Source of the DNA: Acidimicrobiia bacterium
Lineage (GTDB): Bacteria; Actinomycetota; Acidimicrobiia; Spongiisociales; Spongiisociaceae
Assembly (NCBI GenBank): GCA_021296345.1
Contig: JAGWAN010000026.1
Span: forward strand, 1-64,000
Direction: 5' to 3'
Length of the DNA: 64,000 nt
The notes beneath the pieces were generated by a model. The model ran no database searches. It was given only the letters and a program-made list of their open reading frames with translations, and was not told the DNA's origin. Positions 30,404 to 63,518 of this stretch are shown here, in pieces (within the stretch, counting starts at the first letter, position 1; each line of letters begins with the position of its first letter). The position numbers and the translations under genes are program-made.

Positions 30404-31687
30404 ATGGCGAACCGGTACCCGAGAATCGTAGAGCGTCTGCTCGAAGAGGAACTGCTGTCGATCTTCCCCGCAGTGCTGCTGGTGGGGGCTCGCGGCGCCG
30501 GTAAGTCCACTTCGGCCGGCCGGTTCGCGGACACCACAATCGACCTGTCGATGCCCGGTCCGAGGCTTGCAGCCCGCCAGGATCCTGATGGACTCCTTGC
30601 CGCCTCTCCGGGAACGGTGGTGATCGACGAGTGGCAGGAGGCGCCCGAGATCGTGGGCGCGGTAAAGCGAGTGGTTGACACTGATCACTCTCGCACACCG
30701 GGCCGGTTCATTCTCACAGGTTCGGTACGGGCGGCCCAACAAGCCGCCACCTGGCCAGGCACCGGCCGTCTGATCCGGGTACGGATGTCGGGACTGACCC
30801 AGGGCGAGATCGAACACGACCGGGTGTACAACCCGATCGAGGAGCTGTTCTCCCCGGCCGACGCACCGATCGGAGGCACCTGCGATCTCACCAGATCGGA
30901 CTATCTCAAGCGCCTAGTCGCCGGTCGTTTCCCGGACGTGTTGCGTCTGTCAGGGCGTTACCGGTCCCGCTGGTTCGCCAGCTATGTGGAGCAGTTGACC
31001 GAGTTCGACGCCCGTCAGATCGCAGTCGGGACCCCGAGACCGACCAAGTTGCGATCGGTGCTGGCCTCGTGCGCGGCCCGTACCGGCCAGCTACTCAGCC
31101 AGGTGGCCACGGCGCGGGACGCAGGTGTAGCCGCTCCCACAGCCGAGGCTCATATGCGGCTGCTGGAGGATCTATCGATCATCGCCCGCATACCGGCTTG
31201 GCACTCCAAGCGACTGCACCGCCTCACCAGATCCCCGAAAGTCCACGTGGTCGATCCGGGTCTTGCTGCCCATCTCCTACACGCCGACGAGGACACCTTG
31301 GCCCGGGACGCGACGCTGGTGGGGCAGTTATTCGAGACCTTTGTCGTGAGCGAGCTCCGTCCCCGTCTCGAGGCAGTCTCCGTCGCCACCGAGATGTTCC
31401 ACTTCCGCGATCGTTCCGGACGCGAGGTCGACTGCGTGCTCGAGCGGGGAGGTCGGGTCGTCGGGCTTGAGGTGAAGTCATCGACCAGGGTGGGTCGCCA
31501 CGACGCCAAGAGCCTCATCTGGCTACGCGACCAGTTGGGCGACCGCTTCCATCTCGGCGTGGTCCTCTACGCCGGACAGTTCCCGTTCCGGATCGGCGAC
31601 CGCCTGTGGGCGCTACCCATCGGCTCGCTTTGGCGCCAACCAGATTCACTCGAGAAGGCCGACCAACCACCAGGCGGTGAGGGATGA
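30404..31687 (+). CDS. AAA_14/DUF4143 ATPase
   Basis: A 427-residue protein of the common but uncharacterised AAA_14-DUF4143 family. Walker A GARGAGKST (residues 28-36), a Walker-B-like TVVIDEWQEAPEI and sensor FILTGSV make up the N-terminal ATPase. The C-terminal DUF4143 part has FETFVVSELR and a PD-(D/E)xK-like core (REVDCVLERGG...GLEVKSS). Its 3' end overlaps the ATG of the next gene by 4 bases. It sits with that gene between hyuA and hyuB, in lower-GC sequence, which argues for insertion. Function of the family is unknown; DNA-related or toxin-like roles have been suggested. Confidence 0.9.
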   Translation: MANRYPRIVERLLEEELLSIFPAVLLVGARGAGKSTSAGRFADTTIDLSMPGPRLAARQDPDGLLAASPGTVVIDEWQEAPEIVGAVKRVVDTDHSRTPGRFILTGSVRAAQQAATWPGTGRLIRVRMSGLTQGEIEHDRVYNPIEELFSPADAPIGGTCDLTRSDYLKRLVAGRFPDVLRLSGRYRSRWFASYVEQLTEFDARQIAVGTPRPTKLRSVLASCAARTGQLLSQVATARDAGVAAPTAEAHMRLLEDLSIIARIPAWHSKRLHRLTRSPKVHVVDPGLAAHLLHADEDTLARDATLVGQLFETFVVSELRPRLEAVSVATEMFHFRDRSGREVDCVLERGGRVVGLEVKSSTRVGRHDAKSLIWLRDQLGDRFHLGVVLYAGQFPFRIGDRLWALPIGSLWRQPDSLEKADQPPGGEG

Positions 31688-50117: not shown

Positions 50118-50556
50118 GGCGTTCTTCCTTTCCTTTGATCCAGTCTCCATTCCGCATCGCTGCGGCGGCACGCATGTCCCCGACTGAGACGCTGGTCGGA
50201 GATCCGCTCTCGGCGCACTCGACTGCGTTACACTTCTGCTGATGAAGGTTCGGCACCGGGGACATGCGGACTTCAACCTGTGGGCTAGGCAGCCCTGGGT
50301 TTTGTCGGATGCTGTGGTAGCGAGTCTCCTTAATTTTGGCTGCCGTGTTTCCGATAGTGCTTAACTGTAGCGTATAAGGTGCCGATGGTGGTGAACTTCG
50401 CTCCTTCCGACGGTCGCCCTCCCTCTCGGGTGCCGGGTCGTCCTTGGCCTCTGCTTGGCGAGCGGCAACTGGTCACCGGTGTCCGATGATGGGCCCGAAG
50501 CTGGCGTCGGCTGCGAGGACAAGCTGACCGTGCGGTCGGAGACGAGGATCGAGGGG
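50118..50556. other. Divergent spacer before the first XRE-ImmA gene
   Basis: The spacer separates the leftward ubiquitin-like operon from a rightward XRE-ImmA gene. TATAAG at 50373-50378 lies six bases before an ATG (50385) that opens a 35-codon frame ending near 50490; it may be a leaderless small gene or a chance frame. Nothing else is assignable. The sequence is mixed in composition, AT-richer around 50320-50390. Confidence 0.35.
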
Positions 50557-51669
50557 GTGGAAGCCGCAGCCCGTCGTGTGGCGCCGGTCTTCTCGGGTCC
50601 CCGTCTGGTGGCCCTGCGCGAGCTGTGCGGAATGACTCAAGCAGCCGTTGCTGGGGAAGCAGGCATCACGGCTTCGGCCTTGAGCCAGGCGGAGCGCGGC
50701 CACACGGCGCTCTCAGCTCGGAACATCGCGAAGGTCGCCCGGTTCTTCCAGGTGACTCCCGATGCCTTGGCCGAGCGGCGTGAGGCAGACCTCGAGATGA
50801 AACCGCAGTTCCGTCACCTGCGGCGCACCTCCGTACGGGAACAGCGCAAGGCAGAACGGTTCGTCCTAGCGACGGCACGCGTCGCGGCCATCCTTCGCGA
50901 CCGGGTCGAGTTTCCAGAGCCGTTTACCTTCACCCACCCGATCAACCCGCTGTTCGGCATCCAAGATGTGGCGGAGGAGGTGGAGCGCGCTGCTGAGCTA
51001 ACGAGGTCGGAGCTCGGTCTCCCCAGGAACGAGCCGATCGGTTCCCGGCTCATCGGCCAGCTCGAGGCAGGAGGAGTCACCGTCGTGCGGGATCCCGAGA
51101 CCGACCGGGACATCGACGCCTACTCTGCAGTCGTTGGCCGACTGCCCGTGATTGTCCTTGATGGAGGCGAGGGATCGGTCTGGGACCGTGACAACTTCAA
51201 CTTGGCTCACGAGCTCGGACATCTCGTGATGCACCGAGGCATTGCCCATACTCCGGGCACGCGTACCGTCGAAGCACAGGCGCATAGATTTGCCGGGGCG
51301 TTTCTCGGACCAGCCGAGGCTTTGCGCAAAGTGTTGCCTCGCCGTCTTGACTGGAACCGCTACCTCGAACTGAAGCGCGAGTGGGGTATGTCGATGGCAG
51401 CGCTTATCCGGCGGGCCAAGGACCTCGGTGTCATCAACGACGCGATGTACACGCGAGCAATGAAGCAGCAGAGCTCCTACGGTTGGAGGAAAGTCGAGCC
51501 TGGCTCGACCGACCGGCTCCTTCCAGTACCCCGCTTTATGCCCCACGCCATGTCCCGAGCCGAAATCTCCACACCCCACCTATCGAAGCGGGCACACCTG
51601 CCCGAAGACGTCGTGCTGCGGATCGTCGGTGAGCGGAAGCCGTCACTCACCGTGGGACTTGCGTCCTAG
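50557..51669 (+). CDS. XRE-type HTH regulator with ImmA/IrrE metallopeptidase domain (first copy)
   Basis: A 370-residue protein joining an N-terminal helix-turn-helix (VALRELCGMTQAAVAGEAGITASALSQAERGHTALSARNIAKVARFF) to a DUF955 zinc protease domain with NLAHELGHLVMH. Such proteins derepress mobile-element or stress genes by cutting repressors, or act with a partner as toxin-antitoxin-like modules. GTG 50557 has GAGG nine bases upstream; starts at 50530 and 50455 are possible but would add sequence before the HTH. The C terminus ends with an FMPHAMSRAEISTPHL-type segment. No partner gene is adjacent. Confidence 0.88.
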   Translation: MEAAARRVAPVFSGPRLVALRELCGMTQAAVAGEAGITASALSQAERGHTALSARNIAKVARFFQVTPDALAERREADLEMKPQFRHLRRTSVREQRKAERFVLATARVAAILRDRVEFPEPFTFTHPINPLFGIQDVAEEVERAAELTRSELGLPRNEPIGSRLIGQLEAGGVTVVRDPETDRDIDAYSAVVGRLPVIVLDGGEGSVWDRDNFNLAHELGHLVMHRGIAHTPGTRTVEAQAHRFAGAFLGPAEALRKVLPRRLDWNRYLELKREWGMSMAALIRRAKDLGVINDAMYTRAMKQQSSYGWRKVEPGSTDRLLPVPRFMPHAMSRAEISTPHLSKRAHLPEDVVLRIVGERKPSLTVGLAS

Positions 51670-54765: not shown

Positions 54766-54805
54766 AGGCGGGGTGATTCCGGCGGAACGCCCTTTTGTTT
54801 TGTGG

Positions 54806-54821
54806 TATATTTGCTGGTATG
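54806..54821 (+). promoter_or_regulatory. Leaderless promoter of the 54819-56477 module
   Basis: TATATT (54806-54811) is separated from the ATG at 54819 by 7 bases, leaving no room for a 5' leader or ribosome site. This is the standard spacing for leaderless transcripts in actinobacteria. The same arrangement is present at 61290-61305. Confidence 0.5.
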
Positions 54822-55436
54822 AAATCCTATCCCGAATCCGAGAAGGTGCTTGAGGACCTGGGCGACAAGGTGCTCGAAGCCTTCTCCGAGGCTACCTCGG
54901 AGTCCCGGGCCGACCTCGCCCGATACCGTCGGAATTCGCCCGAGTTCGTAGTCGACGCGTCGCCACGTGGATTGGCCAACTGGATTCACGACCGCCTGAT
55001 GAAACGCCTGATAGATGCAGTCGAGGGGATGGACCACGTGTCGGTCGTCGAGAGCGGCCCGACACGGGAGATCTTCGTCAGCAGTGCAACCTTGCTCTAC
55101 CGGATCCGGGTTAAGCGTCACGACCTTGTGGGCAATGTCAGAACCTACCCAACCCAAGGAGCGCTCGAGTTCTTGGAACAGACCTTCCAGCCAACCCTCG
55201 ACGGTCTGTTCGAGGTGCACCTCATCCTGGGCTATCGATGGGAAGTGGATGCTTACGAGATCGGATCCACGGTACTGTCCTTGCGCGACGGCATGAAGAA
55301 CATCATATGGCTGATCGAGCTCGACCGACCCGGCTCCAGCAGTTCCGGCGCAACCGATCTCCGGCCTCCTTCCCTTCCGGACCCGCCGCGGATCGGGCTA
55401 TCCCTCGACAGTACGGAAGCGGACCGCGGCTCCTAG
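54819..55436 (+). CDS. Hypothetical protein paired with an XRE-ImmA protein
   Basis: A 205-residue protein with an acidic, helical N terminus (SEKVLEDLGDKVLEAFSEATSESRADLARYR) and a mixed alpha/beta core (HVSVVESGPTREIFVSSATLLYRIRVKRHD, FEVHLILGYRWEVDAYEIGSTVLSLRDGMKNIIWLIELD). The tail is proline/serine-rich and disordered. No family recognised. Its stop is directly followed by the ATG of the XRE-ImmA gene, a firm two-gene operon. By analogy with other ImmA pairs it could be the toxin or regulated target of its partner; that is inference. ATG 54819 is preceded by a -10 box only. Confidence 0.75.
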   Translation: MKSYPESEKVLEDLGDKVLEAFSEATSESRADLARYRRNSPEFVVDASPRGLANWIHDRLMKRLIDAVEGMDHVSVVESGPTREIFVSSATLLYRIRVKRHDLVGNVRTYPTQGALEFLEQTFQPTLDGLFEVHLILGYRWEVDAYEIGSTVLSLRDGMKNIIWLIELDRPGSSSSGATDLRPPSLPDPPRIGLSLDSTEADRGS

Positions 55437-56477
55437 ATGGGGCTCGGCGAGGCGATCGCCACAGGACGCCGTGCCCGTGGGTTGACCCAGATCCAGTTCG
55501 CAGAGCAACTCGGCCTGACCCAGGCCGCCGTGTCCCGGTACGAGAACGACCTCCGCGATCCGTCCGGAATCCTCCTCGAAGAGTTGGCCTCGGCGTTAGG
55601 TGTCACGGTCGAGTTACTTCGGAGCGCCGGAAGAATGGAGGGCGCCCTGGCGATCGGTGCTCACATGCGCAGACGCGCCACGGCGCGACCTACGGTATGG
55701 AGACGGCTGGAGGCCCAACTCAATCTGACCCGTCTCCATTGCCAGCAGCTTGCCGACCGTATTGACCTCGATACCGATCTCAACATTCCCTGGTTAGATC
55801 CGTTCGAGTTCGATCCGGCTACGGCGGCTCGCCTCCTGCGTGCCGAATGGCGCATGCCGGCCGGTCCGGTGCGGGGTCTGATCGGATGGATGGAAGCCGC
55901 AGGGTGCTTCGTGTTGGAGAGCGACTTCGGTACCAGGAGGGTGGACGGGCTCTCCCAATGGGCGCGGACATACTCGGTCATCATGACCAACTCCACGGCG
56001 CCGACTGACCGCAAACGGCTGACCCTCGCCCACGAGTTGGGGCATCTGTGCCTTCATAGCCAGGGAGTTCCCGATGATGTCGAATCCGACGCCATGGCAT
56101 TCGCGTCAGAGTTCCTGATGCCCGCGGAGGTCATTCGCCCCCAGCTGCGGAACCTCACTACGGGGCGGCTGCACGACCTGAAGCGGTTCTGGGGCGTTTC
56201 CATGCAGGCCTTGATCGAACGCGCCTACCAACTCGGCACCCTCACGGCCAAAAAACGAACGTACCTCTACAAGCGGTTCAGTGCCCTGGGATGGCGAACC
56301 CACGAGCCGGTGAGCGACGAGTTAGCGCCCGAGCGGCCCCGGCTACTAGCAGACATCGGGCGCGAGTTGCTAGACCGAGGCTTCACCCCGCCGGAAATCG
56401 CCGCCATGTCCGGATATGCAGCAAAAGCCGCCGACAACCCGTTCCTCAGCCAAGGCCCGCATCTGCGGGTCGTCTGA
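55437..56477 (+). CDS. XRE-type HTH regulator with ImmA/IrrE metallopeptidase domain (second copy)
   Basis: A 346-residue protein: N-terminal HTH (GRRARGLTQIQFAEQLGLTQAAVSRYENDLRDPSGILLEELASALGV) and a C-terminal DUF955 protease with LTLAHELGHLCLHSQ followed by ESDAMAFASEFLMP, the second zinc-ligand region. It starts on the base after the stop of the 54819 gene, so the two are co-expressed. It is a distant paralogue of the 50557 protein, with a longer middle region. The usual role is a repressor plus metallopeptidase switch controlling its own operon. Confidence 0.92.
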   Translation: MGLGEAIATGRRARGLTQIQFAEQLGLTQAAVSRYENDLRDPSGILLEELASALGVTVELLRSAGRMEGALAIGAHMRRRATARPTVWRRLEAQLNLTRLHCQQLADRIDLDTDLNIPWLDPFEFDPATAARLLRAEWRMPAGPVRGLIGWMEAAGCFVLESDFGTRRVDGLSQWARTYSVIMTNSTAPTDRKRLTLAHELGHLCLHSQGVPDDVESDAMAFASEFLMPAEVIRPQLRNLTTGRLHDLKRFWGVSMQALIERAYQLGTLTAKKRTYLYKRFSALGWRTHEPVSDELAPERPRLLADIGRELLDRGFTPPEIAAMSGYAAKAADNPFLSQGPHLRVV

Positions 56478-56673: not shown

Positions 56674-57648
56674 CTACACGGACTCGGCAGCTCCCAGGCG
56701 GGAGGCTTCGGCGTTCAGTAGTCGGGCCGGGGTGTCGGGATCGTCGATGGTCACTACGAACACCTTTCCGTCGTGGAGGTCGAGGCGGATGCCGGGGCCG
56801 GCGCGCAGGACCACGGCGGCACGGTTCATGAGGGTCAGGTTGCCCCGGTATCCCCATCCGCCCCATTCGGTGGGGTGGACGGTTATGGCCTGGGCGGTTG
56901 CGATACGGCGTCGGGGCACCGACGTGCCGGGCCATCCGAGGAAGCCGTAACGGACCTGCAGTCCCGATCGGTCGGCGGTGACGCGGATGCGGCTGAAGGT
57001 GGTGGTGGCGATCCCGGGGACCACCAGGACCAGCGCGAACCATGGTTCCACCACCTGCGTGAGGCCCAGGGCTACGAGCAGGACGACCGGGCCCAGCAGC
57101 AGTGGCCACCTGGCGGACAGGGTGGCGGTCCAGAACGCCCGCTCGCCGGGAGCGAGGTCCAAGGCCGGTGGGGTGGCGCCGGCGCCGGCATCGCTGCTGG
57201 CCGGGAGGGACGAGGCGATCCGCGCCGCCGCGCTGCCCACGATCAGGCTGCCGGCGATCCAAAAGATCAAGACCCAGAGGGGTAGCGACGCGTCCTGCCA
57301 TCGGTCCAGTCCTCGCTGGCCGACAGCGGTGGTGGCGAGGATTCCCGAGGCGAGCGCCACGAAGAACGCACCGACGAACGAGACGGTCGGCGCGACCATC
57401 GGCTGGAACGGCCGCCGTATGAGGGCGATGGCCGCGCACATCACCCATCCGAGCACCATGAGCGTCCCGACGAAGATGAGGAACTGCCCGGTTGTCATCG
57501 AGCCGTCCGCCCCTCCGACGATGGAGTAGTGACTCGCCACCCGATCCGGGAGGTCGGATCGGTAGGCCAGGTACGGGCCGAGGCCCAGGGCCGCCACCGC
57601 AGCAGGGATGCCGGCACCGAGGACCGCCCTTCGTGTCCGTTCGTTCAT
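56674..57648 (-). CDS. DUF1648-domain membrane protein under GntR control
   Basis: A 324-residue membrane protein. The N-terminal helix and RSDLPDRVASHYSIVGGADGSMT segment is the DUF1648 hallmark (LPxxVPxHxxxxGxxD). Further helices lie around residues 55-75, 85-110, 125-145 and 180-215, and a C-terminal cytoplasmic PH-like part follows (TTFSRIRVTADRSGLQVRYGFLGWP). Similar proteins (SdpI/YhdP-type relatives) are involved in envelope stress or immunity. ATG 57648 overlaps the GntR stop by 4 bases, so expression follows the regulator. Confidence 0.85.
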   Translation of the reverse strand: MNERTRRAVLGAGIPAAVAALGLGPYLAYRSDLPDRVASHYSIVGGADGSMTTGQFLIFVGTLMVLGWVMCAAIALIRRPFQPMVAPTVSFVGAFFVALASGILATTAVGQRGLDRWQDASLPLWVLIFWIAGSLIVGSAAARIASSLPASSDAGAGATPPALDLAPGERAFWTATLSARWPLLLGPVVLLVALGLTQVVEPWFALVLVVPGIATTTFSRIRVTADRSGLQVRYGFLGWPGTSVPRRRIATAQAITVHPTEWGGWGYRGNLTLMNRAAVVLRAGPGIRLDLHDGKVFVVTIDDPDTPARLLNAEASRLGAAESV

Positions 57649-57992
57649 AGTTGCACCTCTACCAGTCGAAGGATCTCGCTGTTGCCCAGGCCGGCGCGGC
57701 GCGCTTCTTTGACCAGCCTGCGGGCGAGTTCGACCTGCCGGGTCGCCGACTTGGCGTCCCTCGCCACCGATGTACCCCGGCCTCTGCGGACCTCCAGCAA
57801 GCCCTCGTCGCGCAACGTCTGGAACGCCCGGAGAACCGTATGCATGTTCACTCCCAGGCCCTGCGCCAGATCACGCGCCGGAGGCAGTTTCTCGCCCTCC
57901 GCCAGCTCCTGGGCGGCGATGCCACGACGTATCTGACCGGCCAACTGTTCATGGAGGGGCTGCGTGGACTGTGCGTCGATCTTCCAGAGCAT
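57645..57992 (-). CDS. GntR-family transcriptional regulator, YtrA subfamily
   Basis: A 115-residue regulator, the short YtrA type: winged HTH with IRRGIAAQELAEGEKLPPARDLAQGLGVNMHTVLRAFQTLRDEGLLEVRRGRGTSVA, then only about 35 residues of a helical tail for dimerisation. The ATG at 57992 fits the family start MLWKIDAQSTQPLHEQLA; the longer frame upstream is unlike the family. It is autoregulated in all likelihood, because a perfect palindrome covers its promoter and start codon. It is cotranscribed with the DUF1648 gene. Confidence 0.93.
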   Translation of the reverse strand: MLWKIDAQSTQPLHEQLAGQIRRGIAAQELAEGEKLPPARDLAQGLGVNMHTVLRAFQTLRDEGLLEVRRGRGTSVARDAKSATRQVELARRLVKEARRAGLGNSEILRLVEVQL

Positions 57993-58015: not shown

Positions 58016-58198
58016 ACCTATAGCAACTGTGCTGGTAGGTCTTCGCACACCCCGGCGGGTTCAGATGGAGCTTGGGCACATTTGCCCGCGGGTCCGGACT
58101 GATAAGGACGTCGGTGGTGACGCTGACCACGCGTCCGTCGAAACACTTCGGCTGTTTCCGACAGTCTCCTTCGTGGCTAGTGGTTCTCGGACGGAGCG

Positions 58199-60298
58199 GT
58201 GTGGTTCCTGTCACAAGACCTCGTTACATTTCCTGAGAAGACGAGCGAGGTTGACCTGCCACAGATAGAACGCACAGCTTTGTCGCTGCTGCGGAAGCTC
58301 ACGGATGACGCTGGTGCGGTATTCCGTCCGCACCAGTGGGAGGCGATCCAGGCTCTGGTACGGGACCGTAGGAGGGTACTGCTCGTGCAGCGGACCGGAT
58401 GGGGGAAGAGCGCCGTCTATTTCATCGCCACCAGGTTGCTGCGCGATGAGGGTGCCGGACCGACGATGCTGGTGTCTCCTCTGCTGGCGCTCATGCGCAA
58501 CCAGATCGAGGCGGCCGAGCGTATGGGAATACGGGCTGCGACCATCAACAGCGCGAATCGAGACGAGTGGGACCAGGTCGAAGAGGACGTCAAGAGCGGC
58601 CGGGTCGATCTTCTTCTCATCTCGCCGGAACGGCTTGCCAACCAAAAGTTCCGCTCTGGACGGCACAGCGGTCTTCTGGTGGTGGATGAAGCCCACTGCA
58701 TCTCCGACTGGGGCCACGACTTCAGACCCGACTACCGCAGGATCGTCCGGGTTCTGGACCTGCTGCCACGCGGAGTGCCGGTGCTGTGTTGTACCGCCAC
58801 CGCTAATGACCGGGTTGTCGAGGATGTGATGGATCAGTTGGGTTCGGAGCTCGTACCGCTAAGGGGCTCGTTGGGGCGTGAAGGACTCAGGCTGCACGTG
58901 CTTGCCATGCCCTCGCAAAGGGAGCGCATGGCCTGGCTTGCCGGCGTCATACCCCGCCTGGAGGGTACCGGCGTCGTCTACTGCCTGACCATCCGCGACA
59001 CCATCCAGTTAGCGGCATGGCTGCAATCGAGAGGAATCGATGCGGTTGCGTATAGCGGGAATACGGATCCGGATGCAAGGCTCGCCATCGAAGGGGAGCT
59101 CCTGGACAACCGGCGGAAGGTGGTGGTGGCCACCTCGGCCCTCGGCATGGGATTCGACAAACCGGACCTTGCCTTCGTGATCCACTACCAGTCGCCCGGA
59201 TCGCCGATCACGTATTACCAGCAGGTCGCACGAGCAGGTCGGAAACTCGACAGGTCATGGGGCATCCTCCTGAACGGATCCGAGGACCGGCAGATACAGG
59301 ACTATTTCATCGCAGCGGCGTTCCCACCCCCCGATCTTGCGACGCGGGTGGCAGCGCTTCTCCGGGACCGAGCCGTGCCGATGTCTTCGACGGAGTTACT
59401 AGGGGAGATCAACGTCCGACCGGGTCAGCTGAGTAAGTTGCTCAAGGTACTGGAGGTTGAAGGGGCCGTCGAGCGGGTCGGTGGTCGCTGGCGGCGCACG
59501 TTGCGGCCGTGGGCGTATGACCGTGATCGGGTGGAGGCGGTGACGGCGCTGCGTAGGGTCGAGCAAAGACAGATGCAGGACTACCTATCCACCGACCGAT
59601 GCCGTATGGCGCTCCTGCGGTCGTACCTCGACGACGCCTCATCGGGACCATGCGGGATCTGCGACGTCTGTAGCGGCGACCGCATCCAGCTCGATCTCGA
59701 TCCCGAAGAAATCGAGCAGGCGGAGAGGCACGTACGCGCAGCGGAACACCCGATCGAGCCCCGCAAGAGGTTCCCGGGCTCGGGGAATATCAAACTCGAC
59801 CGGCGCCTGGAGGTTGGTCGCGCCCTCTCCGCGTGGGGCGGCGGAGGCTGGTCTGATCTGGTCCGCCGTGGGAAGCAGGTGGATGGCTGCTTCGATGATC
59901 GGTTGGTCGCCGCCGCGGCACAACTGATCCGGCAAACCCGGTGGTCCGACGGACCCCCGGAGTGGGTCACCTTCGTTCCTTCGCTACGTAGTCCGGATCT
60001 GGTGGCACACTTCGCTAGGCGCTTGGCGGCATCCCTGGGCCTGGCGTGCGAAGATGTGGTGGCCAAGGTCCGGGAAACCCGCCCGCAGAAGTCGATGCAG
60101 AACAGCGAGCAACAGTACGACAACATCCGCGGTGCCTTTACCGTTCGCTCACAGGTCCATCGGGGACCCATGTTGCTGGTGGATGACATCGTGGATTCAC
60201 GCTGGACGATGACGGCCATCGGCTGGTTGCTACGAGAAGCGGGGTCGGGGCCGGTCTATCCGTTCGCTCTCGCCGACACCGCGGGGAGGTCGGTGTGA
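58199..60298 (+). CDS. RecQ-type DNA helicase fused to a C-terminal phosphoribosyltransferase domain
   Basis: A 699-residue protein. Helicase motifs: QRTGWGKS (K70), LVVDEAHCISDWGHDFRPDYR (DEAH plus the RecQ aromatic loop, about 160-180), CCTATAND (motif III) and YQQVARAGRKLD (motif VI, with the usual GRxGRxG weakened). A RecQ zinc site is present (CRMALL...GPCGICDVC, about 470-493). The HRDC position is replaced by a ComF-like PRTase: VTFVPSLRSPDLVAHFARRLAASLGL, VRETRPQKSMQNSEQQYDNI and the PRPP loop MLLVDDIVDSRWT. GTG 58199 is the annotated start. The stop overlaps the DprA-like gene, so the pair acts together, possibly in defence against incoming DNA. Confidence 0.92.
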   Translation: MWFLSQDLVTFPEKTSEVDLPQIERTALSLLRKLTDDAGAVFRPHQWEAIQALVRDRRRVLLVQRTGWGKSAVYFIATRLLRDEGAGPTMLVSPLLALMRNQIEAAERMGIRAATINSANRDEWDQVEEDVKSGRVDLLLISPERLANQKFRSGRHSGLLVVDEAHCISDWGHDFRPDYRRIVRVLDLLPRGVPVLCCTATANDRVVEDVMDQLGSELVPLRGSLGREGLRLHVLAMPSQRERMAWLAGVIPRLEGTGVVYCLTIRDTIQLAAWLQSRGIDAVAYSGNTDPDARLAIEGELLDNRRKVVVATSALGMGFDKPDLAFVIHYQSPGSPITYYQQVARAGRKLDRSWGILLNGSEDRQIQDYFIAAAFPPPDLATRVAALLRDRAVPMSSTELLGEINVRPGQLSKLLKVLEVEGAVERVGGRWRRTLRPWAYDRDRVEAVTALRRVEQRQMQDYLSTDRCRMALLRSYLDDASSGPCGICDVCSGDRIQLDLDPEEIEQAERHVRAAEHPIEPRKRFPGSGNIKLDRRLEVGRALSAWGGGGWSDLVRRGKQVDGCFDDRLVAAAAQLIRQTRWSDGPPEWVTFVPSLRSPDLVAHFARRLAASLGLACEDVVAKVRETRPQKSMQNSEQQYDNIRGAFTVRSQVHRGPMLLVDDIVDSRWTMTAIGWLLREAGSGPVYPFALADTAGRSV

Positions 60299-61242
60299 TG
60301 CGCAACGACGACTCGCTGGCGACCATCCTCCTGGTGAGCAGGATCGCGCCGGACGGTGTGGCGCCGCTCACAGCTTCACAGTTCTGGCGCCTGGTCGATC
60401 AGTCCGGCGATCCGGGTGATCTGCTCGGACGGACCGAGGGCGATCTGGTCGGCTCCGGGTTGGCCGAGGACATGGCGACCCGGGTGGTCGGGCTGCTCTC
60501 GCGGGCTACTGCCTTGGCTTTCGAGTTGGACCGGCTCGACCAGTCCGGGGTCGTAACGCTGACGCCGTTCGACGAGGGCTACCCGCAGGGGTTGCATGGA
60601 AGGCTCGGATCGAAGAGGCCGGCGATCCTCCATGCTGCCGGCGCCCTCGAACTGCTCGATCAGCCGGGGGTCGGTGTCGTAGGAAGCCGCAACGTGAGCG
60701 CGGAGGGAGCGGAAGTCGCCGGGGCGCTAGGGCGGCAGGCAGCTTCACTCGGGCTTCCCCTCATCTCGGGTGCGGCGCGGGGAGTCGACCAGCTGGCGAT
60801 GAACGCGGCATTTGAGGCCGGAGGAACCGTGGTCGGGCTCCCGGCCCAATCGCTCATCCGGACGCTGAGGTCTCCCGGCGTCCGGCGTGCTGTCCACGAC
60901 GGGCGGACCGTGATGTGCTCCCCCTACGCACCGGACTCCCCCTTCACGGTCGGCAAGGCAATGGGCCGGAACAAGCTCATCTACGCCCTCTCAGATGTGA
61001 CGGTGGCGGTCGCCTCCGACAACGGCTCGGGCGGAACCTGGTCAGGCGCCACCGAGGCCCTCAAAGGCGATTACGGCCGGGTGGCGGTATGGAGAGGACC
61101 CGGGGAGGGACCCGGCAACGAGCCGCTCGAGCACAAGGGCGCCATACCCCTGACCGACGCATCGGATCTCGACAGCATTCTGAGCGGTGCTCGATCCGAG
61201 CATGATCAGGACTCGCCTCCAAGGCAGGCTGCCCTCTTCTGA
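60298..61242 (+). CDS. DprA/Smf-like DNA-processing protein coupled to the RecQ-PRTase gene
   Basis: A 314-residue DprA-family protein with the Rossmann-type ssDNA-binding core: GVVGSRNVSAEGAEVAGALGRQAASLGLPLISGAARGVDQLAMNAAFEAGGTVVGLPA (quoted in part; about residues 120-180) and FTVGKAMGRNKLIYALSDVTVAVASDNGSGGTW. ATG 60298 follows GGAGG by eight bases and overlaps the helicase stop (TGATG). The C-terminal winged helix of housekeeping DprA appears absent. It is an accessory version tied to the helicase rather than the transformation gene. Confidence 0.9.
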   Translation: MRNDDSLATILLVSRIAPDGVAPLTASQFWRLVDQSGDPGDLLGRTEGDLVGSGLAEDMATRVVGLLSRATALAFELDRLDQSGVVTLTPFDEGYPQGLHGRLGSKRPAILHAAGALELLDQPGVGVVGSRNVSAEGAEVAGALGRQAASLGLPLISGAARGVDQLAMNAAFEAGGTVVGLPAQSLIRTLRSPGVRRAVHDGRTVMCSPYAPDSPFTVGKAMGRNKLIYALSDVTVAVASDNGSGGTWSGATEALKGDYGRVAVWRGPGEGPGNEPLEHKGAIPLTDASDLDSILSGARSEHDQDSPPRQAALF

Positions 61243-61289
61243 TTGCCGTTGTCCGCGACGATCTCCGCGTCCAACGGGCCAGCACTTGG

Positions 61290-61305
61290 TATACTCTACG
61301 GTATG
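61290..61305 (+). promoter_or_regulatory. Leaderless promoter of the MazEF-like pair
   Basis: TATACT (61290-61295) ends 7 bases before the ATG at 61303, the same spacing as at 54806-54819. No ribosome site precedes the ATG. Confidence 0.5.
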
Positions 61306-61524
61306 CCTGAATCGACTACCATCAAGGTCTCGGTCCAGACTCGGGATGCCCTCCGTGAACTCGCTCATCGTGAGGGGCTCACCTTCGACGCACAGATCGC
61401 GAAGCTGGTGCGACGGGAGCGTCGTCGTATCATCGGTGCTCAACTCGCAAGCGCTCCACTCGATGCCGACGACAAGGCCGTGCTCGATGCGTCTGCGAGC
61501 GATGTCGCTGATGCGAGCGGGTGA
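61303..61524 (+). CDS. Small antitoxin of a MazEF-like pair
   Basis: A 73-residue protein: MPESTTIKVSVQTRDALRELAHREGLTFDAQIAKLVRRERRRI begins with a beta strand and two helices of the ribbon-helix-helix type, giving DNA binding. An acidic C-terminal tail (DADDKAVLDASASDVADASG) is suited to wrapping the toxin. A -10 box lies directly upstream (leaderless). It overlaps the toxin gene by 14 bases or more, typical for toxin-antitoxin operons. Confidence 0.85.
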   Translation: MPESTTIKVSVQTRDALRELAHREGLTFDAQIAKLVRRERRRIIGAQLASAPLDADDKAVLDASASDVADASG

Positions 61525-61825
61525 TGTCGTCCGCTGCGACTTCGGGACGCCGTCGCGGGGCGAGCCGGGCTTCGTCCGACCGGCCGTTGTCGTCACTTCC
61601 GATGACGTGCTCGAGTTCCGGCAACACGCGATCGTGGTCGTACCCTGCATGACTACGAGGCGAGGATGGTTGAGCGAGGTTGACATCGCCGGCTTCGGCG
61701 TCGCCCAGGCGCACCTACCGACGACTATCGGCGTTGACCGCGTTGTCGACACGACGGGCACGAACATCGGACCCGTCGCGTTGCAACAGATTCGAGAGCT
61801 CGTCGCCGACTTGATCGGACTCTGA
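61511..61825 (+). CDS. MazF-like endoribonuclease toxin
   Basis: A 104-residue PemK/MazF protein: MRAGDVVRCDFGTPSRGEPGFVRPAVVVTSD is the standard opening (RGDVxxVDxxPxxGxExxKxRPxVVV). VVVPCMTTRR and LPTTIGVDRVVDTTGTNIGPVALQQIRELVADLIGL complete the fold. It is expected to cut mRNA at short motifs when the antitoxin is lost. ATG 61511 was chosen for the canonical N terminus; ATG 61502 is possible. It sits just downstream of the RecQ-PRTase/DprA pair. Confidence 0.93.
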   Translation: MRAGDVVRCDFGTPSRGEPGFVRPAVVVTSDDVLEFRQHAIVVVPCMTTRRGWLSEVDIAGFGVAQAHLPTTIGVDRVVDTTGTNIGPVALQQIRELVADLIGL

Positions 61826-62039: not shown

Positions 62040-63518
62040 TCAGTTGCCTTGCTGGTCGTCCTCGGATGCGTCGGGAGGTTCGGTGTCCGTGAGACCGTGC
62101 AAGGCGGCCAGTTCCTTGGCGACCAGGCGCACTATCAGGTCGTCCAGGGACAGTTCCTCGTAGTCGCGCTGGCCGATGTCGCTGGCTCCGCCGGTGGCGC
62201 GGCCTCCGGCGCCGTAGGTCAGGAACACGTAGCGGGCGCCGGTGAACTGTGCGAATTGGCGGAACACGAACTCGGCCTGATCGTCGGTGCCGGACGACGA
62301 CACAGGGAAGATCTTGATGCCCCGCCGGGCCGCTTCCCGTATCGAGTCGGTGTAGGGCACCGGCACCTGTCGCAGCACCTGAGGGGGAGCGTCGGCCACC
62401 AGGAAGACCAACTGGACCGTCTCGGAGGCGGGGCGCCACGAAGGTTGGGACAGAGCGTCGGCGAGCGCTTCGTCGAGGGCTTCCGGATAGTCGTCGCCGC
62501 CATAGGCCACGACCTCGGCGAGTGCTCCGGCGAAGGCCTGGATGTCCGGGGTCAGGTCGAACGTCGCGGTCAGGTATTCGTCGAACTCGTCGCGGTACAG
62601 GGTCATGCCCAGGCGGACGTCCACATCACCGGGTAGCTGGTGGATGCGGTGGGCCACCTCGTCGATGGTGATCTTGAGTTGGTATATCTCATCGTCCATC
62701 GAGCCGGTGGAGTCGAGCAGGAAAAGGACGTCGAGGGCAACGGTCTCACCGGCCGCGGTGGGCAGGGAAGTCTCGAGGGCGACGCTCTGGCCTCGCTCGG
62801 CTGTCGTGGTCGCTCCTCCGGCGGACACTGCGAACGGCCCGTCACCCAACTCGTAGGCCTCCGGGTGGAAGCGGATCGTGCCGTCGGCGGTGGTCCTAAG
62901 GCCCACCCCTACCTGGCCGGCGGCCACCAGGACCTCGGCGCCGGCCACCGGAAGGCCGCCTGCGCCGGTCACCGTCACAACGATGCGTCCGGTGGGGTCG
63001 AGGTCGCGGACCTGGATACCGAGGCCGAAGAAAACCGAGCGGTAGGCCAGGTAGTCCTCGAAGCGTTCGTTGTCGTCGATCGACCCGCCGGTGAGCCTCG
63101 TCTGGAGTTGTTCCGATTCGTGGACCACCTCGTCGATCACCTCATCCGATGCTTCGATCGTGGGGGCGGGGGCCTCGGTGGTGGCAGTCCCGGGGTCGGC
63201 GGCTGCGGCGCTACCAGCCTCCTCAGCTGCCATCTCGGCGGCATCTGCCGCCATCTCGCCTTCTGCCATCGCCTCTAGTTCGACGGCGACATCTTCGGAC
63301 ACTTCGTCCCAGTCGGGCTCGCCTTCGATCCATCCGTCATCGGCACTCGGAGTGGTTCCGCCCTCGTCGGATGGTTCGGGTGCGAACTCGACCGACGGTG
63401 CCGCTGTCACCACGGGGGCAACAGTCGTCTCCGGCGGGGCAACGGTCGCCGCAACGGTGTTGTCGGGGCTTTCGGAGCTGCAGGCGGTCGCCAGGAGGGC
63501 GACGACCGCCACCAGCAC
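62040..63518 (-). CDS. VWA-domain lipoprotein (start apparently frameshifted)
   Basis: A 492-residue protein. The lipobox is LLATAC, followed by a long acidic, low-complexity linker (to about residue 130), a beta-sandwich (about 170-255) and a von Willebrand A domain (about 258-440). The VWA domain has an intact MIDAS motif DSTGSM (D268) and later FLVADAPPQV. Such proteins bind ligands at the cell surface through a metal. The only in-frame start is GTG 63518, leaving an unusually short signal peptide without basic residues. One extra C in the run at 63532-63536 would join it to an upstream MMSIHA start, so a frameshift or sequencing error is likely. Confidence 0.85.
   Translation of the reverse strand: MLVAVVALLATACSSESPDNTVAATVAPPETTVAPVVTAAPSVEFAPEPSDEGGTTPSADDGWIEGEPDWDEVSEDVAVELEAMAEGEMAADAAEMAAEEAGSAAAADPGTATTEAPAPTIEASDEVIDEVVHESEQLQTRLTGGSIDDNERFEDYLAYRSVFFGLGIQVRDLDPTGRIVVTVTGAGGLPVAGAEVLVAAGQVGVGLRTTADGTIRFHPEAYELGDGPFAVSAGGATTTAERGQSVALETSLPTAAGETVALDVLFLLDSTGSMDDEIYQLKITIDEVAHRIHQLPGDVDVRLGMTLYRDEFDEYLTATFDLTPDIQAFAGALAEVVAYGGDDYPEALDEALADALSQPSWRPASETVQLVFLVADAPPQVLRQVPVPYTDSIREAARRGIKIFPVSSSGTDDQAEFVFRQFAQFTGARYVFLTYGAGGRATGGASDIGQRDYEELSLDDLIVRLVAKELAALHGLTDTEPPDASEDDQQGN

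Follow-up and report, generated by a model that had tools for sequence, protein, structure and literature searches.

A PsyrTA (RqlHI) pair beside a separable MazEF-type pair in an Acidimicrobiia genome, with repeated loss of the predicted toxin gene in close relatives

Positions 58,199 to 61,825 of a 64,000-nucleotide stretch of an Acidimicrobiia genome (the window; positions 1 to 64,000 of contig JAGWAN010000026.1) carry a gene for a RecQ-like helicase fused to a phosphoribosyltransferase (PRTase), a gene for a DprA-like protein, and two small genes of toxin-antitoxin (TA) type. Profile matches and domain content identify the first two as PsyrTA, alias RqlHI, which is a described toxin-antitoxin/defence system and not a new module. 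Less expected is what sequence comparison revealed in most close relatives: the toxin gene has been lost at this very spot and an intact antitoxin gene has been kept. We consider it very probable that the locus is a PsyrTA operon together with an independent MazEF-type pair, placed at a site that collects TA genes, and that PsyrT is a toxin restrained by PsyrA. Family membership, intact catalytic motifs, operon structure, toxin deletions and purifying selection on PsyrA were established directly. The window is part of a 70.7 kb contig of a 2.8 Mb genome in 82 contigs (G000; G and L numbers denote the genomes and loci compared), and those of its relatives in the genome collection that bear a name are Acidimicrobiia assembled from metagenomes. 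Coordinates are collected in Table 1.

PsyrT matches the PADLOC PsyrT profile with 872 bits over positions 6–686 of 689, i.e. at full length, and contains the Pfam DEAD, Helicase_C and RecQ Zn-binding domains. Its score on the canonical RecQ equivalog TIGR01389 (277 bits) lies below the cut-off of 640, and no HRDC model matched in the Pfam search. The Walker A (RTGWGKS), DEAHC and phosphoribosyl pyrophosphate (PRPP) loop (VDDIVDSRWT) motifs are intact. An AlphaFold2 model of the C-terminal 205 residues, with a predicted local distance difference test (pLDDT) score of 93, has a confident PRTase fold; the best solved Foldseek matches are APRT, H. pylori ComF, PurF and ShosT (8zvb/8zvd), and a profile search of the PDB with the PRTase region returned PRPP synthetases and HGXPRT. 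Because the Pfam PRTase model reaches 17.2 bits, below its cut-off of 26.3, the PRTase assignment rests on the fold and on the intact PRPP loop LLVDDIVDSRWT. These results bear out an earlier reading made from the letters alone (the sequence-only reading), which had placed a ComF-like PRTase where the HRDC domain would stand. The GTG start is a prediction, homologues beginning at residues 9–28. The best plasmid matches are 41–51% identical, and viral contigs yielded a single distant relative. In E. coli, RqlH owes its genotoxicity to the PRTase domain and needs the PRPP pocket (D663, DIVD motif) for it (PMC4670107); the DIVD motif is also present in window PsyrT.

The sequence-only reading had psyrA translationally coupled to psyrT, and the junction is exact: the two genes share one base in TGATG, with the stop codon at 60296–60298 and the ATG at 60298–60300. 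Its description of the product as DprA-like also holds, since Pfam DNA_processg_A matches with 102 bits (cut-off 29.6) and the PADLOC PsyrA model with 262 bits over profile positions 1–311 of 398. Canonical DprA is a different protein: PsyrA scores 76 bits on the DprA equivalog TIGR00732 (cut-off 191), and a separate canonical DprA is encoded elsewhere in the same genome (G000:C49). Gene order, domain content, intact catalytic motifs, coupled start and full-length profile matches are those of PsyrTA/RqlHI, whereas window PsyrA stops before the C-terminal helix-turn-helix (HTH) of E. coli RqlI, the locus goes on into a MazEF-type pair, and most close relatives retain PsyrA only. RqlI binds and counteracts RqlH in E. 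coli, for which residues 1–320, lacking the HTH, suffice (PMC4670107); the 314 residues of window PsyrA come close to that length. DprA homologues of shosTA, syrTA and rqlHI have been described as antitoxins (PMC9122126). With ShosTA the window pair shares a PRTase fold and a DprA-like partner, PsyrA giving a profile match to the solved DprA-like antitoxin ShosA (9vzo) and PsyrT the structural match to ShosT. However, ShosT is without a RecQ helicase, whereas PsyrT has helicase domains and is no stand-alone PRTase, and the DprA-like protein scores 262 bits to PsyrA versus 83 bits to the best ShosA model. A ShosTA-like pair, in which a 188-aa PRTase-like open reading frame (ORF) overlaps a DprA-like gene, is present elsewhere in the class (L167, in G127). 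The sequence-only reading noted DprA/PRTase combinations among catalogued candidate anti-phage systems, and PADLOC models of PsyrT and PsyrA match the two genes. Its proposal of a candidate defence module stands for these two genes, already catalogued as PsyrTA/RqlHI, and not for helicase-PRTase plus MazEF as a conserved four-gene system.

The site itself is variable. Within the genus the interval is bracketed by GntR and DUF1648 genes on one side and by a VWA gene, found in 9 of 10 genus genomes, on the other; it is nearly empty in G082, where the GntR gene directly adjoins the VWA gene, and reaches ~8.5 kb elsewhere. Besides PsyrA and MazEF remnants, relatives carry HigA-like, TacA plus GNAT, and AbiEii-like genes in the interval, and its variable size and assorted TA-like content identify it, at the level of sequence, as a cargo site and no core locus. 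In eight other genomes (G144, G176, G266, G290, G210, G272, G296 and G298, the last from another genus), PsyrA, 82–85% identical to window PsyrA, is found at the site, adjoining the same GntR gene, with only the ends of psyrT. The deletions have three structures (Table 1), the middle piece of type A being visible in G144 and G176 only in the junction alignment. At the orthologous site they always gut PsyrT and spare PsyrA, and all end before the GGGGAGG ahead of psyrA, which is still recognisable in the junction alignment.

Seven of the eight orphan psyrA frames are open; that of G144 has a one-base deletion. Pairwise ratios of nonsynonymous to synonymous substitution rates (dN/dS) are 0.20–0.39 at dS 0.17–0.33 among the seven, and 0.21–0.32 among the four intact type A carriers. 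Neutral simulation of the terminal branches gave an expectation of 9.3 stop codons where none is seen, with 0 of 2000 runs stop-free. Orphan PsyrA is under purifying selection, part of which predates the losses if these are recent. No other PsyrT was found in the orphan-only genomes, which are incomplete metagenome-assembled genomes of 84–97% completeness. Pairing of orphan PsyrA with a different PRTase was considered and rejected: the sole other match in these genomes is a ~324–360 aa PRPP-synthetase-like frame, whose weak match covers the PRPP loop and resembles those of PRPP synthetases in the PDB search.

Within one panel, toxin loss is seen in 9 genomes and antitoxin loss in 1 (P = 0.02, with non-independent genomes); counted as distinct alleles, the ratio is 5:1 and the excess is not significant (P = 0.22). 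As to a single clean origin of the deletion, the trees of psyrA, GntR-DUF1648 and VWA disagree with one another and contain weak nodes. G082 lacks PsyrA at the site but has one, orphaned and accompanied by a remnant of the PsyrT C terminus, at a second locus; G210 has a complete PsyrTA pair at another locus besides its toxin-deleted site. A similar contrast is found in another family of the order, where G195 has an intact pair and its congeners G129 and G236 have PsyrA with PsyrT remnants. Gutted PsyrT beside PsyrA was also seen at L176, L185, L209, L210 and L220; having been found with a PsyrA query, these loci cannot measure the converse loss. At L209, on the Candidatus Mycobacterium methanotrophicum chromosome, PsyrT is without residues ~249–453 and has the Walker A sequence RTGWGES, and the downstream PsyrA is open. 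The intact PsyrTA of L149 (G297) is accompanied on the same contig by two further, degraded copies, of which 3′ fragments of PsyrT and a 5′ fragment of PsyrA are left.

Table 1. Features of the PsyrTA locus and its surroundings, in window coordinates
Feature	Position	Strand	Description
psyrT (rqlH), predicted toxin	58199..60298	+	RecQ-like superfamily 2 (SF2) helicase with C-terminal PRTase, 699 aa
PRTase domain region	59681..60295	+	residues 495–699; PRPP loop LLVDDIVDSRWT around residues 660–671
GGGGAGG, likely psyrA ribosome-binding site	60283..60289	+	inside psyrT 3′ end; from sequence and junction alignment
psyrA (rqlI), DprA-like predicted antitoxin	60298..61242	+	314 aa; without C-terminal HTH of E. 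coli RqlI
mazE-like ribbon-helix-helix (RHH) antitoxin gene	61303..61524	+	from position and coding score; 60 bases past psyrA end
mazF/pemK-family toxin gene	61511..61825	+	overlaps mazE-like ORF; Pfam PemK_toxin 30.2 bits, cut-off 23.1
Type A deletion	retains ~58186-58251, 58494-58567, 60274 onward		G144, G176, G266, G296, G298
Type B deletion	retains ~58206-58287, 60226 onward		G210, G272
Type C deletion	retains 58191-58372, 60253 onward		G290
GntR/YtrA-type regulator, conserved left edge of variable site	57645..57992	-	Pfam GntR
VWA-domain lipoprotein-like gene, conserved right edge of variable site	62040..63518	-	Pfam VWA

The pattern of toxin loss lends indirect support to a toxic PsyrT and a neutralising PsyrA. 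The chances appear evenly balanced that PsyrA is now a stand-alone selected gene in this Acidimicrobiia family after repeated toxin loss, serving either anti-addiction immunity against the PsyrT of incoming elements or of other cells' loci, or toxin-free DprA-like repair. Were orphan PsyrA an ordinary recombination protein kept for DprA-like repair, toxin loss would be uninformative on an antitoxin role. This explanation, which we hold to be a substantial though lesser possibility, gains from the DprA domain and the strong purifying selection in genomes without the toxin, and from the reported DNA binding of ShosA, which probably promotes recombination (review PMC12593503); the separate canonical DprA of G000 and the low score of PsyrA on the DprA equivalog speak against it, and it bears on the orphans rather than on the intact pair. 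Orphaning of antitoxins is a general phenomenon that has been described before (PMC7192599, PMC7354431). In type II/IV TA systems (e.g. in Klebsiella, PMC7192599) the antitoxin likewise stays at the original site once the toxin is lost, whereas here the antitoxin is DprA-like, the toxin is a helicase-PRTase, and the genus has more orphans than pairs. We found no report, in the open-licence literature, of a lineage in which RqlI/PsyrA orphans prevail.

A survey of 296 genomes of the class detected PsyrT-like matches (E <= 1e-180) at 59 places in 58 genomes and PsyrA at 34 places in 32 genomes. Many of these PsyrT genes stand alone, without a clear trace of PsyrA downstream, which agrees with the reported pattern: solo RqlH is common in Gram-positives, and RqlI-only genomes amount to 1.2% (PMC4670107). 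PsyrT is complete upstream of PsyrA at 64 of the best 80 PsyrA loci in the genome collection, partial at 6 and absent at 6; the other 4 are cut by a contig end. Frequent solo RqlH, together with the finding that M. smegmatis RqlH is an active helicase (PMC4670107), could point to a repair operon in which PsyrT acts as a RecQ-like housekeeping helicase for repair and its PRTase tail does no harm; we regard this as unlikely given the patchy presence, repeated deletion and location at a variable site, and given the PRTase-dependent genotoxicity demonstrated for the E. coli relative (PMC4670107).

A TA pair within 60 bases of psyrA, as previously noted, is present. Like MazEF/PemIK, it has a small ORF for an RHH-type antitoxin-like protein ahead of, and overlapping, an ORF for a PemK-family toxin; unlike them, the toxin barely exceeds its Pfam cut-off and the antitoxin matched no curated family above cut-off (RHH_4, 16.1 versus 25 bits). 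Orthologues of the mazE-like gene, 76–97% identical, lie beside mazF in G296, G176, G297 and G300, and mazF is intact in G296, G297 and G300. At the variable site, both genes of MazEF are intact in G000 and G296, G176 combines an intact MazE with a broken MazF, and MazF is reduced to its 3′ end in G266, G290, G210 and G272; in G137, of the same genus, an intact PsyrTA at another place has a decayed MazE behind it and no MazF. These remnants make it probable that the genus ancestor already had MazEF linked to PsyrTA. PsyrTA has been kept with no MazEF beside it in G210 and G297, and orthologous MazEF occurs apart from PsyrTA in G297, where it lies near the VWA gene, and in G300. Compared across genomes, MazEF is a separate, dissociable TA pair that parts freely from PsyrTA.

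MazEF beside PsyrTA at this site is confined to the window's family. Conservation of MazEF beside RecQ-PRTase/DprA genes, raised by the sequence-only reading, is absent across lineages; G001b, L191 and L194 carry other MazF arrangements. PemK is slightly enriched near PsyrTA, with 0.24 loci expected within 1.5 kb among 86 and two independent arrangements seen besides that of the window. A conserved four-gene PsyrTA-MazEF system was ruled out by the PsyrTA neighbourhoods surveyed, almost no other locus of the class having a MazF neighbour. That MazEF is the dedicated second effector of a PsyrTA sensor is highly improbable: the ancestral linkage at the site and the MazF genes adjoining PsyrTA in other Acidimicrobiia (downstream in G001, upstream at L191 and L194, where the toxin is of the PemK family) would fit such a system, but PsyrTA is intact without MazEF in G137, G210 and G297, MazEF orthologues stand apart from it in G297 and G300, the MazFs near PsyrTA differ from one another and occur on either side, and TA clustering explains the adjacency, TacAT-like, HigA-like and AbiEii-like pairs being present at the same site in relatives. 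The opposite picture, a core, non-island locus with MazEF there by chance, fails as well, PsyrTA being patchy and MazEF probably ancestral at the site. At L186 the gene directly upstream of PsyrA encodes a PemK-family toxin; PsyrT is missing there, and PsyrA seems to be frameshifted.

If the locus is a PsyrTA operon with an independent MazEF-type neighbour, PsyrT would be the toxin, its RecQ-like helicase steering a PRTase domain whose most likely action is to use up PRPP or to disturb the nucleotide pool, leading to DNA damage; the related PRTase toxin ShosT is reported to alter purine pools/metabolism (review PMC12593503). PsyrA, as a DprA-like DNA-binding protein made by translational coupling, would restrain PsyrT by binding it and/or by promoting recombinational repair, and infection or DNA stress would upset the balance between the two and stop the cell. 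In the window's lineage the toxin half is often deleted and PsyrA retained under selection. Toxicity, neutralisation, the phage trigger and the nucleotide target we infer from relatives. Several observations weigh against this reading. Many PsyrT/RqlH genes of the class, as of Gram-positives (PMC4670107), are without PsyrA, which means that PsyrT may be non-toxic in some backgrounds; G156 (L048) presents the converse case, a full-length PsyrT with PsyrA truncated after residue ~168; and a study of PsyrTA in its native E. coli strain detected no protection against phage (PMC12409345).

Other defence-like genes occur in the window. An HTH plus ImmA/IrrE protein at 55437–56477 matches PADLOC RmrA models with up to 170 bits and, with a directly preceding 213-aa ORF without any family match, forms a RosmerTA-like pair (54795–56477). 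A second RmrA-like HTH-ImmA/IrrE protein (198 bits) is encoded at 50479–51669, and an ATPase-like protein of the PADLOC candidate family PDC-S01 (392 bits) at 30404–31687.

With this PsyrTA pair, a known defence family is now seen in one more uncultured lineage of actinobacteria, and the pair's toxin-less relatives call for caution, as defence annotation based on co-occurrence will miss them. The alleles at this one site (the pair, three toxin-deleted forms and an empty site) form a series of matched natural alleles in which toxin is separated from antitoxin. The series suggests an independent benefit of PsyrA and offers material for asking whether DprA-like antitoxins neutralise their PRTase toxin directly or repair the damage.

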